Assembly (NCBI RefSeq): GCF_037076455.1
Contig: NZ_AP028679.1
Span: 139,501 to 203,500 of the forward strand
Direction of reading: 5' to 3'
From: Desulfoferula mesophila
GTDB lineage: Bacteria > Desulfobacterota > Desulfarculia > Desulfarculales > Desulfarculaceae
DNA: 64,000 nt
Below the pieces are notes generated by a model. That model worked only from the letters and a program-made list of their open reading frames with translations, did no database searches and had not been told where the DNA came from. Below, one piece after another: positions 5,721 through 12,617 of this stretch; positions within the stretch are counted from its first letter, which is position 1; each line of letters begins with the position of its first letter. A program made the position numbers and the translations under genes.

Positions 5721-6713
5721 GTGACCATTCCCCCCGACCCCAACTCCCCTGATCGCGGGCTGTCGCCCCAGGGGCAATATCAGCTGCTTTTGGCCCAGGC
5801 CCAACAGCAGGCCACGCCCGACGGCATCCTGGTGGTGGATCAGAACAACCGGGTCAAATCCTGGAACCAGCGCCTGTTGGAGCTGTGGGGCCTGGACCCC
5901 AAGGTCATGCTGGGGGCGGACACCCAAAGCCTGCTCAAGTTGACCACCCCCCTGCTGGCCGAGCCCGAGGAGTTCGTCCGCCGTCTGACCCATCTATACC
6001 GCCACCTGGAAGAGCCAGAAGACGCCTGGGAGTTCTCCCTGCTGGACGGCCGGATCATGGTGCGCTATTCCCGGGGCCTGCTGAGCGCCGACGGCCGTTA
6101 TTGGGGCCGGGTATGGTTTTACCGCGACATCACCCGCCGGGTGAAAATGGAACGGGAGCTCCGGCAACACCGCGACCACCTGGCCGAGGAGGTGGCCCGG
6201 GCCACCAAAGGGCTGCAAGAGGAGATCGCCCGCCGCCGGATGACCGAGCGGCAGCTCCGGGAAAAGGAAAAGAGCCTCAAGGCCCAGGCCCGCCACCTGG
6301 AGGAGACCAACATCGCCCTCAAGGTGCTGTTGAACCAGAGCGCCGCCGACCGGCGGAGCCTGACCAGCGGCTTCCGGGTGAACCTGGAGACGGTGGTGCT
6401 GCCCTACCTCAAGGAGCTGCTCTCCCTGGGGCTGAGCCGGGAGCAGGAGGCCCTGGCCCGAGTGATCCAGGACAATCTGGAGGCCCTGGTCAGCCCCTTT
6501 GTCGCCAAGCTCATGGAGGCCCATCCGGAGCTGACCACCCGGGAGGTGCAGGTGGCCGATCTGGTGCGCGCGGGCAAATCCAACAAGGAAATCGCGCCGC
6601 TGTTGGGCATCAGCGCCAGGGCGGTGGAGTTCCACCGCGAAAATATCCGCCGCAAGCTGGGCATCGCCGGACAAAGGGCCAATTTGCGGGCCCGCTTACT
6701 TTCACTTAAGTAA
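5721..6713 (+). CDS. PAS-domain transcriptional regulator with C-terminal LuxR HTH
   Basis: 330 aa, GTG start with GGGAG 8 bp upstream. An N-terminal PAS domain (residues about 20-145; GILVVDQNNRVKSWNQRLLELW, WFYRDITRR) is followed by a coiled coil (about 145-205). The C-terminus carries a GerE/LuxR-type helix-turn-helix (LTTREVQVADLVRAGKSNKE, about residues 272-325). It probably dimerises through the coiled coil and binds DNA in response to a small ligand or redox cue sensed by PAS. No receiver or kinase domain is present. Likely the last gene of the yjbQ operon. Confidence 0.85.
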   Translation: MTIPPDPNSPDRGLSPQGQYQLLLAQAQQQATPDGILVVDQNNRVKSWNQRLLELWGLDPKVMLGADTQSLLKLTTPLLAEPEEFVRRLTHLYRHLEEPEDAWEFSLLDGRIMVRYSRGLLSADGRYWGRVWFYRDITRRVKMERELRQHRDHLAEEVARATKGLQEEIARRRMTERQLREKEKSLKAQARHLEETNIALKVLLNQSAADRRSLTSGFRVNLETVVLPYLKELLSLGLSREQEALARVIQDNLEALVSPFVAKLMEAHPELTTREVQVADLVRAGKSNKEIAPLLGISARAVEFHRENIRRKLGIAGQRANLRARLLSLK

Positions 6714-6950: not shown

Positions 6951-7265
6951 GTGAAATACAAGAGCCTTGCCATAACCGCCGGCGTGGCGGCCGCCTTGAC
7001 CATGGGACTGTACCTGGGCGCCGGAGCCCAAGGGGCCAACTGCACCATCGGTGGCGAAACCGGGCCCGGCGTGCCGGTGTTGCTGGCCGCCCAGAGCGAT
7101 GCCAAGACCAAGCCGGCCCAACCGGCAGCGGAGCAGCCCAAAGACGCCAAACCGGCTCCCGCCGCGGCCCAGGCCCCGGACAAGGACAAAAAGGACGCAA
7201 AACCGGCCCAGCCCGCGGGCGCGGCACCCATCGTGCCCATCATCGCCCCCGATGAAGGCTGCTAG
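6951..7265 (+). CDS. Small exported Ala/Pro/Lys-rich protein
   Basis: 104 aa, GTG start preceded by GAGGAG. N-terminal signal peptide (MKYKSLAITAGVAAALTMGL), one Cys shortly after it (AQGANC), then a low-complexity A/P/K/D-rich stretch (residues 50-90) and a terminal Cys. No family recognised. It precedes another signal-peptide protein by 96 bp and may be co-transcribed. The 237-bp AT-rich leader upstream contains two ccagttaaa repeats at 6781 and 6792, an 11-bp period that could be a regulator site. Confidence 0.65.
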   Translation: MKYKSLAITAGVAAALTMGLYLGAGAQGANCTIGGETGPGVPVLLAAQSDAKTKPAQPAAEQPKDAKPAPAAAQAPDKDKKDAKPAQPAGAAPIVPIIAPDEGC

Positions 7266-7361
7266 CCAACACTTAGTTTCATTTGGTTTACAGGCGAGAG
7301 GGATTTTTTCCCCTTTGGCGGGGGAAAGGTATCAGCCAGGTAAGTCATATGGAGGCAACAA

Positions 7362-8516
7362 TTGTTTAAGAAAACACTAGCAGGTCTGAGCATGCTGGCC
7401 GTTATGGCGGCCGGTGGCTTGGGCGTGCAAGCCGCGGGAGCGGCCGCCGCGCAACCGGAGAGCGCCCTCATGGCCCCTCCGGCCAAGAACTGCGCGGTGG
7501 TGGCCGAGTTCCCGGGCTTACAAAACGTGACCACCCAGAGTTACATCCGAAAAATCACCCTCAACGAGGGCCTGGTGATCCGCAAGAGCCGCATAGAAAA
7601 CGGCAAGATCATCATCCCCCCCTCGGGCTTGTACTACACGACCCGTACCCCCAAGAGCGGCGTGCTGCAGGGAGACAAGGTTCTCATCCTGGGCAAGCTC
7701 TACGAGTTCGTGGATCAGGCCACCAAGTTGGACGTAATCACCAACGTGTGGGTGGATAAGAAAAAGGGCGTTCCCTTTGGCGACGGGACCAAACGCCTGG
7801 AGCTGAGCATCCTGGCCATGGGCGCCAACGGCTTCCCGGTGCCCAACGCCACCTTCAAGATCCTCAAGCAGTCGGGTAACTACTACGGCGTGGCCTTCCC
7901 CGTGGCCACCAGCAACCTGTTCACCGACATCACCAGCGGCAAGCTCAACAAGGGCACCGGGCGCAAGACCGGCACCTACCTGCCCACCGACAAGGGCCAG
8001 GACTTCGAGACCGAATACTACGCCAGCTCGGTGGCCGTCAGCGGCCAGACCTATCTGGTGGCCGACAAGGTGACCCCCAAGGGCGCCCAGGTCAAGGAGT
8101 TCGCCACCGGCGCCCTGCGCTACATGCTGCTGAGCCCCGATGCGCCCAAACAAGCCCTCATGGCTGCGGGCGACAAAATCGAATACGGCGGATTCACCCT
8201 GGAAATCACCAAGGTGGCCGCCAACTTCGCCGATGCGAAGCTGACCTGCAAAAAGAGCGGCAAGAGCTGGACCAAGCGTTTTGGCCCGCTGACCGCCGAG
8301 GTGCTCAAGTACATGCCCGTGGACGAGGAAAGGCGCGCCGCCTTCGTGCTGCGCGACCCCTCCGACCGGGTGCAGGCCCAGCTCAACATCTACAAGGCGG
8401 GTGGAGCCTTCCAAGACGGCAAGGTTCAGATCGCGTTGTACAAAGACCTGATCAAGCTGGGCAATCCCAGCCCCTGGACCCCGGACAAGCGCTTCCTTTA
8501 CCGTCCCGACACCTGA
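7362..8516 (+). CDS. Exported protein of unknown function; N-terminal part of a candidate selenoprotein
   Basis: 384 aa up to a UGA at 8514-8516. TTG start with GGAGG 6 bp upstream. Signal peptide (MFKKTLAGLSMLAVMAAGGL, cleavage near AQPESA), then a beta-rich, family-less sequence. The UGA is not followed by a frame change: the same frame continues for 105 more codons to 8834, and the next residues would be S-T-C, giving U385-S-T-C388. That is the spacing of selenocysteine redox motifs. Either UGA is read as Sec and the protein is 489 aa, or this is a nonsense mutation or sequence error. The stop-terminated 384-aa version is the conservative annotation. Confidence 0.7.
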   Translation: MFKKTLAGLSMLAVMAAGGLGVQAAGAAAAQPESALMAPPAKNCAVVAEFPGLQNVTTQSYIRKITLNEGLVIRKSRIENGKIIIPPSGLYYTTRTPKSGVLQGDKVLILGKLYEFVDQATKLDVITNVWVDKKKGVPFGDGTKRLELSILAMGANGFPVPNATFKILKQSGNYYGVAFPVATSNLFTDITSGKLNKGTGRKTGTYLPTDKGQDFETEYYASSVAVSGQTYLVADKVTPKGAQVKEFATGALRYMLLSPDAPKQALMAAGDKIEYGGFTLEITKVAANFADAKLTCKKSGKSWTKRFGPLTAEVLKYMPVDEERRAAFVLRDPSDRVQAQLNIYKAGGAFQDGKVQIALYKDLIKLGNPSPWTPDKRFLYRPDT

Positions 8517-8548
8517 AGCACCTGCTCCATGTTCATCGAGGGCATGCT
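8514..8548 (+). promoter_or_regulatory. In-frame UGA with possible SECIS-like hairpin
   Basis: The UGA at 8514-8516 is followed directly by bases that can pair as AGCA/TGCT (8517-8520 with 8545-8548) and TGCTC/GGGCA (8523-8527 with 8540-8544), with CC bulged. The 12-base loop contains GTT. Bacterial SECIS elements lie just downstream of UGA and present GU in an apical loop. The fit here is loose and was judged by hand. Confidence 0.35.
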
Positions 8549-8834
8549 TGAGAATGACAAGCAGATCGTCCTGGATGCAGCCAACAACGTGTTTGTTGGT
8601 CCGAACGGATACTTCAAGGTGGTCATCGACAAATTCGACGGTAAGACTATTCAGGCCTGGCACGTGGAAGACGCCAAAGGCAATTCCACCGGCAACCTGG
8701 CGGCGCGTAGCGGCGGCACCAACGTTGATCTTCTGATCAACAAAGACTGCCGCACCGTGTCTCACTTCATGAAGCGCATCGCTCTTCAAGTCCTAGCTGA
8801 ACAACAGAAGCAGATTAAAGAGCTCAGCAAGTAG
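8529..8834 (+). CDS. Continuation of the preceding exported protein, in the same frame
   Basis: 101 aa if started at the ATG 8529, 12 bp after the UGA of the preceding ORF and in the same frame. There is no Shine-Dalgarno sequence before this ATG and no signal peptide, so independent translation of a soluble partner is unlikely. It contains a VDLLINKDCRTVSHFMKRIA segment and a charged, helical C-terminus. The simplest reading is that it is the C-terminal quarter of a 489-aa exported protein joined by UGA read-through. A strong terminator follows immediately. Confidence 0.6.
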   Translation: MFIEGMLENDKQIVLDAANNVFVGPNGYFKVVIDKFDGKTIQAWHVEDAKGNSTGNLAARSGGTNVDLLINKDCRTVSHFMKRIALQVLAEQQKQIKELSK

Positions 8835-8861: not shown

Positions 8862-8896
8862 GGACCGCCGGGTTTTACCCGGCGGTCCTATTTTTT
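8862..8896 (+). terminator. Rho-independent terminator
   Basis: Perfect 11-bp stem (8862-8872 with 8878-8888), 5-base loop, then TATTTTTTG. It closes the exported-protein transcription unit. Confidence 0.9.
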
Positions 8897-9427: not shown

Positions 9428-9548
9428 GCGGCTTCGCCAGGCCCCGCATGGCGGCGTTGTCGGCGTCACGCGGTCCTCGGCGTAGGTAGACTACGCCTGC
9501 GTCCCTCGTTCGCCTGCCGCCTTGCCCTGAGGCCTCTGACTGTGCCGC
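9428..9548 (+). repeat. Dispersed 120-bp hairpin repeat, copy 1
   Basis: 121 bp starting gcggcttcgcc and ending ctgtgccgc, with a central dyad cctcggcgtag / ctacgcctgcg. It is directly followed by copy 2 in tandem, nearly identical. Confidence 0.9.
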
Positions 9549-9669
9549 GCGGCTTCGCCAGACCCCGCATGGCGGCGTTGTCGGCGTCACGCGGTCCTCG
9601 GCGTAGGTAGACTACGCCTGCGTCCCTCGTTCGCCTGCCGCCTTGCCCTGCGGCACCTGGCTGTGCCGC
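9549..9669 (+). repeat. Dispersed 120-bp hairpin repeat, copy 2
   Basis: 121 bp, head-to-tail with copy 1 and differing at only a few bases. Same central dyad and the same gcggcttcgcc...tgtgccgc ends. Confidence 0.9.
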
Positions 9670-9677
9670 TGGTTTCT

Positions 9678-9722
9678 GAGCGATAGCGTAGGTTAGGTTG
9701 AGCGAAGCGAAGCCTAACAATT
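9678..9722 (+). repeat. Short REP-like repeat (gatagcgtaggtt family), copy 1
   Basis: Contains gcgtaggttaggttgagcg and agcctaacaa, an imperfect inverted repeat around a gcgaagc centre. Related copies occur at 9801 and 44405. The intervening 9723-9800 holds only further degenerate repeat-like sequence. Confidence 0.75.
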
Positions 9723-9800
9723 CCATTGTCGTTGGGGGGAGCGCAGCGACGAAGCAATCTCCGCCCGAAGGAGAGCCTTTCGCGCTATTTCGAGCCTTGG

Positions 9801-9852
9801 AGCCATAGCGTAGGTTGGGTAGAGGGCTTCCCAGCCCGAAACCCAACAATCC
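9801..9852 (+). repeat. Short REP-like repeat, copy 2
   Basis: gccatagcgtaggttgggta ... cccaacaat; the inverted ends gttgggt/acccaac are kept while the centre differs from copy 1. Confidence 0.7.
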
Positions 9853-12481: not shown

Positions 12482-12601
12482 CCGGCTTCGCCAGACCCCG
12501 CAGGGTTGTGCCCACGGCGTCACTCGGTCCTCGGCGTAGGTCTGCTACGCCTGCGTCCCTCGTTCGCCTGCCGCCTTGCCCCGCGGCGCCCGGCTGTGCC
12601 G
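12482..12601 (-). repeat. Dispersed 120-bp hairpin repeat, copy 3
   Basis: Begins cggcttcgccagaccccgca and ends cggctgtgccg, with the central cctcggcgtag/ctacgcctgcg dyad. It shares the downstream tccctcgttcgcctgccgc block with copies 1 and 2. Lies between the aminotransferase and dapA-like genes; orientation is not meaningful because the unit is nearly palindromic. Confidence 0.85.
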
Positions 12602-12617
12602 GTGCCAGGTACGAAAC

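Follow-up and report, generated by a model that had tools for sequence, protein, structure and literature searches.

Among the described systems closest to the locus analyzed here are the bacterial selenoproteins with a U-x-x-C or C-x-x-C motif (Sec-thioredoxin, Prx-like and CYCXC proteins), and the locus resembles them in its in-frame UGA, in the exchange of selenocysteine (Sec) and Cys, in the redox-type spacing of the motif and in the accompanying Sec machinery. It lies at 7362–8834 of a 64,000-nucleotide stretch of Desulfoferula mesophila DNA (the window). Searches of Pfam and NCBIfam returned no family match above the curated cut-off, which agrees with the original prediction of an unrecognized family. 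Likewise, nothing comparable appears among the 119 selenoprotein families of a 2026 review (PMC13188914), and we found no literature report on the selenoprotein family of 7362–8834. Since Pfam, NCBIfam and the review list all lack a match, the product is a new exported selenoprotein family, as far as those libraries go.

The plus-strand frame 7362–8834 is open except for a single stop, the UGA at 8514–8516, so that the original prediction was correct in frame, coordinates and residues when it described two ORFs of one frame split by this codon. From the TTG at 7362, 384 codons lead to the UGA, which is followed directly by AGC ACC TGC TCC ATG, and the distal stop is the TAG at 8832–8834. Sec insertion would indeed create the proposed U385-S-T-C388; in the ortholog of Desulfocarbo indianensis (strain SCBM), the residues spanning the site would read ...RPDT-U-STCSMFIEGMLENDK. 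A GGAGG lies shortly 5′ of the TTG, and in two orthologs (L006 and L007) it is equally placed, there 5′ of an ATG. The notion of one periplasmic selenoprotein is borne out by comparison insofar as a single exported protein is concerned, and export fits the signal-peptide-like N terminus; the length needs amending from 489 to 490 residues. Table 1 lists the features of the locus.

Table 1 Features of the predicted selenoprotein locus and its upstream neighbors (window coordinates)
Feature	Position	Strand	Remarks
PAS-LuxR regulator	5721..6713	+	may regulate the locus; found upstream in Desulfocarbo (G002) too
Small exported-looking protein, 104 aa, GTG start, ends ...IAPDEGC	6951..7265	+	upstream in all 5 species
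Shine-Dalgarno region (GGAGG), 5′ of the TTG start	7350..7355	+	from sequence and orthologs
Predicted selenoprotein gene, 490 aa	7362..8834	+	starts with TTG, ends with TAG; codon 385 is the UGA (predicted Sec)
Signal-peptide-like N terminus: basic, hydrophobic core, Ala-rich cleavage region	7362..7455	+	by inspection of the sequence
UGA, predicted Sec385	8514..8516	+	every site-covering homolog has Sec or Cys
Cys388 (TGC), second residue of the U-S-T-C pair	8523..8525	+	9/10 aligned homologs
Proposed intervening hairpin, 44 nt	8534..8577	+	8-bp outer stem perfect in 4/5 orthologs; one mismatch in window
Candidate displaced SECIS, GCCAACAA-CGUGU-UUGUUGGU	8580..8600	+	8-bp stem, invariant in 5 species
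Intrinsic terminator 3′ of the distal stop, 12 bp and T-run	8862..8888	+	terminator scan

Orthologs were found in four further Desulfarculaceae genomes, at 84% (G007), 81% (G008), 74% (G002, Desulfocarbo indianensis) and 67% (G014) identity. Each has exactly one internal stop, a TGA at the same codon, and the identical UGA with a continuing protein is present in five species of three genera, the window's own included; in a further relative, G006, a contig end cuts the gene 5′ of the site. When 395 Desulfobacterota genomes were searched with a profile, nine had matches, the window's own genome among them. Among the distant homologs, L038, from another Desulfobacterota family (G143), has a TGA at the aligned column (HYL-U-PQCYMM). 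The homologs in G087, G344 and G108 have Cys there (TGC; RPDV-C-GHC) in proteins of ~950–980 aa made of two copies, the first copy lacking the pair. A G007 paralog has C-PQG at the site (C-x-x-G), and megaplasmid proteins of Paracoccus versutus and P. ferrooxidans have C-PTG. The Cys codon at the column is TGC in L015, L035, L036 and L037, and L062 and L063 also have Cys. Counted together, Sec occupies residue 385 in six homologs and Cys in five, and none was seen to end at residue 384, an outcome that favors the original prediction. In an alignment of ten sequences (A2), 25 columns are invariant, residue 385 among them, and residue 388 is Cys in nine. The two Sec lineages stand apart in the tree, and Sec may have had a single origin in both. 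We found no homologs among viral contigs and phages.

The 100 codons 3′ of the UGA are under purifying selection (dN 0.03–0.25 against dS 0.23–1.0). Recurrence in four further species, this selection and a distant in-frame UGA at the same column together place the arrangement far beyond chance. The window's genome also has Sec machinery: selA is matched at 612 bits and selB, in full length, at 393 bits, and there is a tRNA-Sec with anticodon UCA. Nine of ten relatives tested have selA (G002, G004, G007, G008, G009, G087, G108, G143 and G344), the one miss being G014, a 70% complete genome. Judged by these comparisons, the locus very probably encodes one continuous protein with Sec at the UGA of 8514–8516. 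SelB and tRNA-Sec would decode this codon to yield a 490-residue exported selenoprotein, with U385-S-T-C388 as the predicted active-site motif.

We then considered the signal for Sec insertion. The accepted range of a bacterial SECIS (bSECIS) is 16–37 nt after the UGA (PMC13188914); our canonical criteria combined this distance with a G in the first two loop positions and an MFE of −7.5 or lower. The distant homolog L038 has a textbook element within these limits (GAUGGCC-GGUCU-GGCCAUC; 7-bp stem, 21 nt after the UGA, −12.9 kcal/mol). The window's genome also contains formate-dehydrogenase-like (FdhA-like) genes with an in-frame UGA, and in both of those that we inspected the element is GUCGCC-GGUCU-GGCGAC, its loop lying 18 nt past the UGA. 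As a separate observation, two formate-dehydrogenase-like loci with an in-frame UGA, L050 and L051 (G000 C1:886475 and C1:1834024), have an identical 110-nt SECIS region, which suggests a recent duplication.

Within the window's own clade, the candidate SECIS hairpins of normal spacing, at 24 and 33 nt, do not hold up throughout the five orthologs. Hairpins do form right after the UGA, as the original prediction had noted, but they are weak, and an equivalent bSECIS-like filter lets through 64% of 300 TGA triplets drawn at random from the window. In one of the five orthologs, L007, the near-UGA hairpin reaches −7.1 and so misses the energy cut-off. As the recoding element, the hairpin originally put forward may give way to one 71 nt downstream, whose loop (8588–8592) falls outside the range of 16–37 nt. 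The CGUGU loop of this hairpin has GU at positions 2–3 and U at position 5, as do the GGUCU loops of FdhA and L038, and of the window's 1580 TGA triplets, only 21 have a strict hairpin of that kind within 90 nt.

Conservation of the region is high, with 96% identity across three genera over the 90 nt from the UGA. The 29 nt at 8574–8602 do not vary at all; they contain the rare codons GCA, TTT, GTT and GGT, and an invariant GAT lies at the edge of this block. At sites where the residue is invariant, rare codons are kept in all five species at six of eight positions in the hairpin region as against five of 49 elsewhere (Fisher p 0.0003, for a region picked after inspection). An RNA-model search of 20 family genomes gave strong matches solely behind the selenoprotein gene, the remaining matches being weak (E 0.004 or more). 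The element at +71 has no counterpart in the Cys homologs or in L038, where the SECIS is normal, and an Rfam search around the gene gave nothing above threshold. In alifold stability the region ranks 13 among 411 windows, which is better than average without setting it apart. The intervening helix shows one compensatory change, the window copy has a mismatch in it, and its score is attained by 209 of 500 control shuffles. Because the sequences are 96% identical in this region, the covariation test is uninformative, and since the helix 8580–8600 never varies, covariation cannot support it.

From this pattern we tentatively propose, with a confidence that is at best evenly balanced, that the insertion signal in Desulfarculaceae is the displaced SECIS hairpin at 8580–8600. 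A two-hairpin architecture is conceivable, and we hold it as a possibility short of probable: the invariant hairpin would bind SelB, and the intervening hairpin would loop out 44 nt, bringing it from 71 nt to a working distance of ~27 nt. A competing reading is that Sec is inserted through a hairpin at the conventional position, either one with the loop GGNAUG ~24 nt after the UGA or one with the 9-nt loop GARAAYGAC at 33 nt, the +71 hairpin then being an accessory or unrelated RNA element. We regard this as a serious contender, though somewhat under an even chance. Both hairpins form in several orthologs and lie within 16–37 nt (PMC13188914), but mismatches weaken them in L007 and L009; comparable hairpins follow most random UGA triplets, and codon-level conservation is strongest around the +66 to +86 stem.

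What the protein does was approached through its predicted structure and its neighbors. AlphaFold2 modeled the full 490 residues with confidence as a mainly beta fold that runs through residue 385 (pLDDT 81, pTM 0.78), and well-predicted blocks flank this residue on either side (pLDDT 86–95). Neither PDB sequence searches nor Foldseek against the PDB gave a significant match. Orthologs adjoin TonB receptors in G007 and G008 and a FecCD transporter in G002, and a PF03601 transporter adjoins the Cys form of G344. The neighboring genes suggest a chemistry outside the cytoplasm that involves sulfur, selenium or a metal, and we infer an exported product, rich in beta structure, with a redox or soft-metal-binding role. 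Its location would be periplasmic or at the surface, and its Sec-Cys pair would form a selenenylsulfide/thiol redox center or else a soft-metal site, perhaps together with the small exported protein that is inherited alongside it and has a conserved cysteine as its last residue. On the basis of motif and neighborhood, we favor a Sec-Cys redox role at roughly even confidence, with soft-metal binding as its main rival.

The specific form of that rival, in which U-S-T-C-S-M is a NosL-like soft-metal (Cu) site and not a thiol-redox center, is unlikely in our estimate. Pfam NosL (PF05573) matches residues 383–439 in two orthologs with E 0.02–0.04, and the TonB receptors of two species and the FecCD/periplasmic-binding-protein set of a third also speak for it. 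However, the matches score 14.9–15.5 bits against a cut-off of 24, the distant homologs tested give no NosL match, and the TonB and FecCD neighbors are not kept in the window's species.

Several further features of the neighborhoods were observed. The small protein at 6951–7265 is Ala/Pro/Lys-rich, its C-terminal ...APDEGC is invariant, and five species have inherited it together with the selenoprotein. Cys tandem forms, or a C-terminal fragment, stand immediately 5′ of a gene for a YeiH-like (PF03601) transporter in L035, L036, L037 and L039, an assignment for which a Pfam match was confirmed only in L036. On the Paracoccus ferrooxidans plasmid pFER4 (L063 5166–13380), the Cys homologue lies among genes for cysteine desulfurase, TusA, DsrE, a MetE-like protein, selA and trxB, a cluster that looks like an uncharacterized sulfur or selenium trafficking island. 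The window also contains a 121-nt direct repeat, with tandem copies at 9428–9548 and 9549–9669 (96% alike) and a third copy 2.9 kb off at 12482–12602 (83%); diverged repeat-like sequence is found nearby at 9678–9824.

Two other readings of the UGA itself are both highly improbable. One is readthrough, regulated or otherwise, with a non-Sec residue such as near-cognate Trp or Cys. Downstream RNA structure can promote readthrough, and the window copy has no convincing canonical bSECIS at 16–37 nt. Against this, the genome has the Sec machinery, Sec and Cys exchange at exactly the residue 385 column with U-x-x-C spacing, and the distant homolog L038 has its textbook SECIS. The other is that the UGA is a true stop, followed by a separate 101-aa protein or a decaying fragment. 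Standard annotation would give this reading, and an in-frame ATG exists at 8529. Yet this ATG lacks a Shine-Dalgarno sequence, as the original prediction had remarked, and the codons 5′ of it are also invariant; homologs run through as continuous proteins with Cys replacing the UGA, and selection purifies the sequence past it. A plus-strand terminator scan found nothing after the UGA and a strong terminator only 3′ of the distal stop. The C-terminal 146 residues fold poorly when modeled alone (pLDDT 62.7), which makes the second ORF an unlikely candidate for an independent domain. A sequencing error or frameshift is ruled out by the identical UGA in independent assemblies.

Given one continuous selenoprotein, comparison with known systems places it as follows. 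It shares with NosL a C-x-x-C-x-M-like segment, here residues 385–390, but the score is sub-threshold and the remainder of the protein is unmatched. The best VIA-align match of the model, a lead only, is the DUF1608 domain of a Methanosarcina S-layer protein (PDB 3u2g; Z 9.3, 221 residues aligned). Methanosarcina S-layer proteins carry this domain in tandem (PMC3361143), and tandem copies also occur in the Cys relatives described here, but the rmsd is 6.2, identity is 14% and a sequence match is absent. With the canonical bSECIS of the genome's FdhA-like genes, the candidate signal has in common a 5-nt loop, GU at positions 2–3, U at position 5 and a stem of 6–8 bp; it differs in the distance of its loop from the UGA. 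Should the hairpin at +71 prove to be the SECIS, the bacterial distance rule would need revising, and further selenoproteins may be hidden. The gene is an example of one that standard annotation splits and that would escape SECIS-distance filters. Unlike the U-x-x-C/C-x-x-C families known so far, this protein is mainly beta, 490 aa long, exported and free of Pfam or NCBIfam matches; with it, the selenoproteins gain an exported family whose scaffold is mainly beta, and its natural Sec/Cys pairs are available for testing what Sec contributes.
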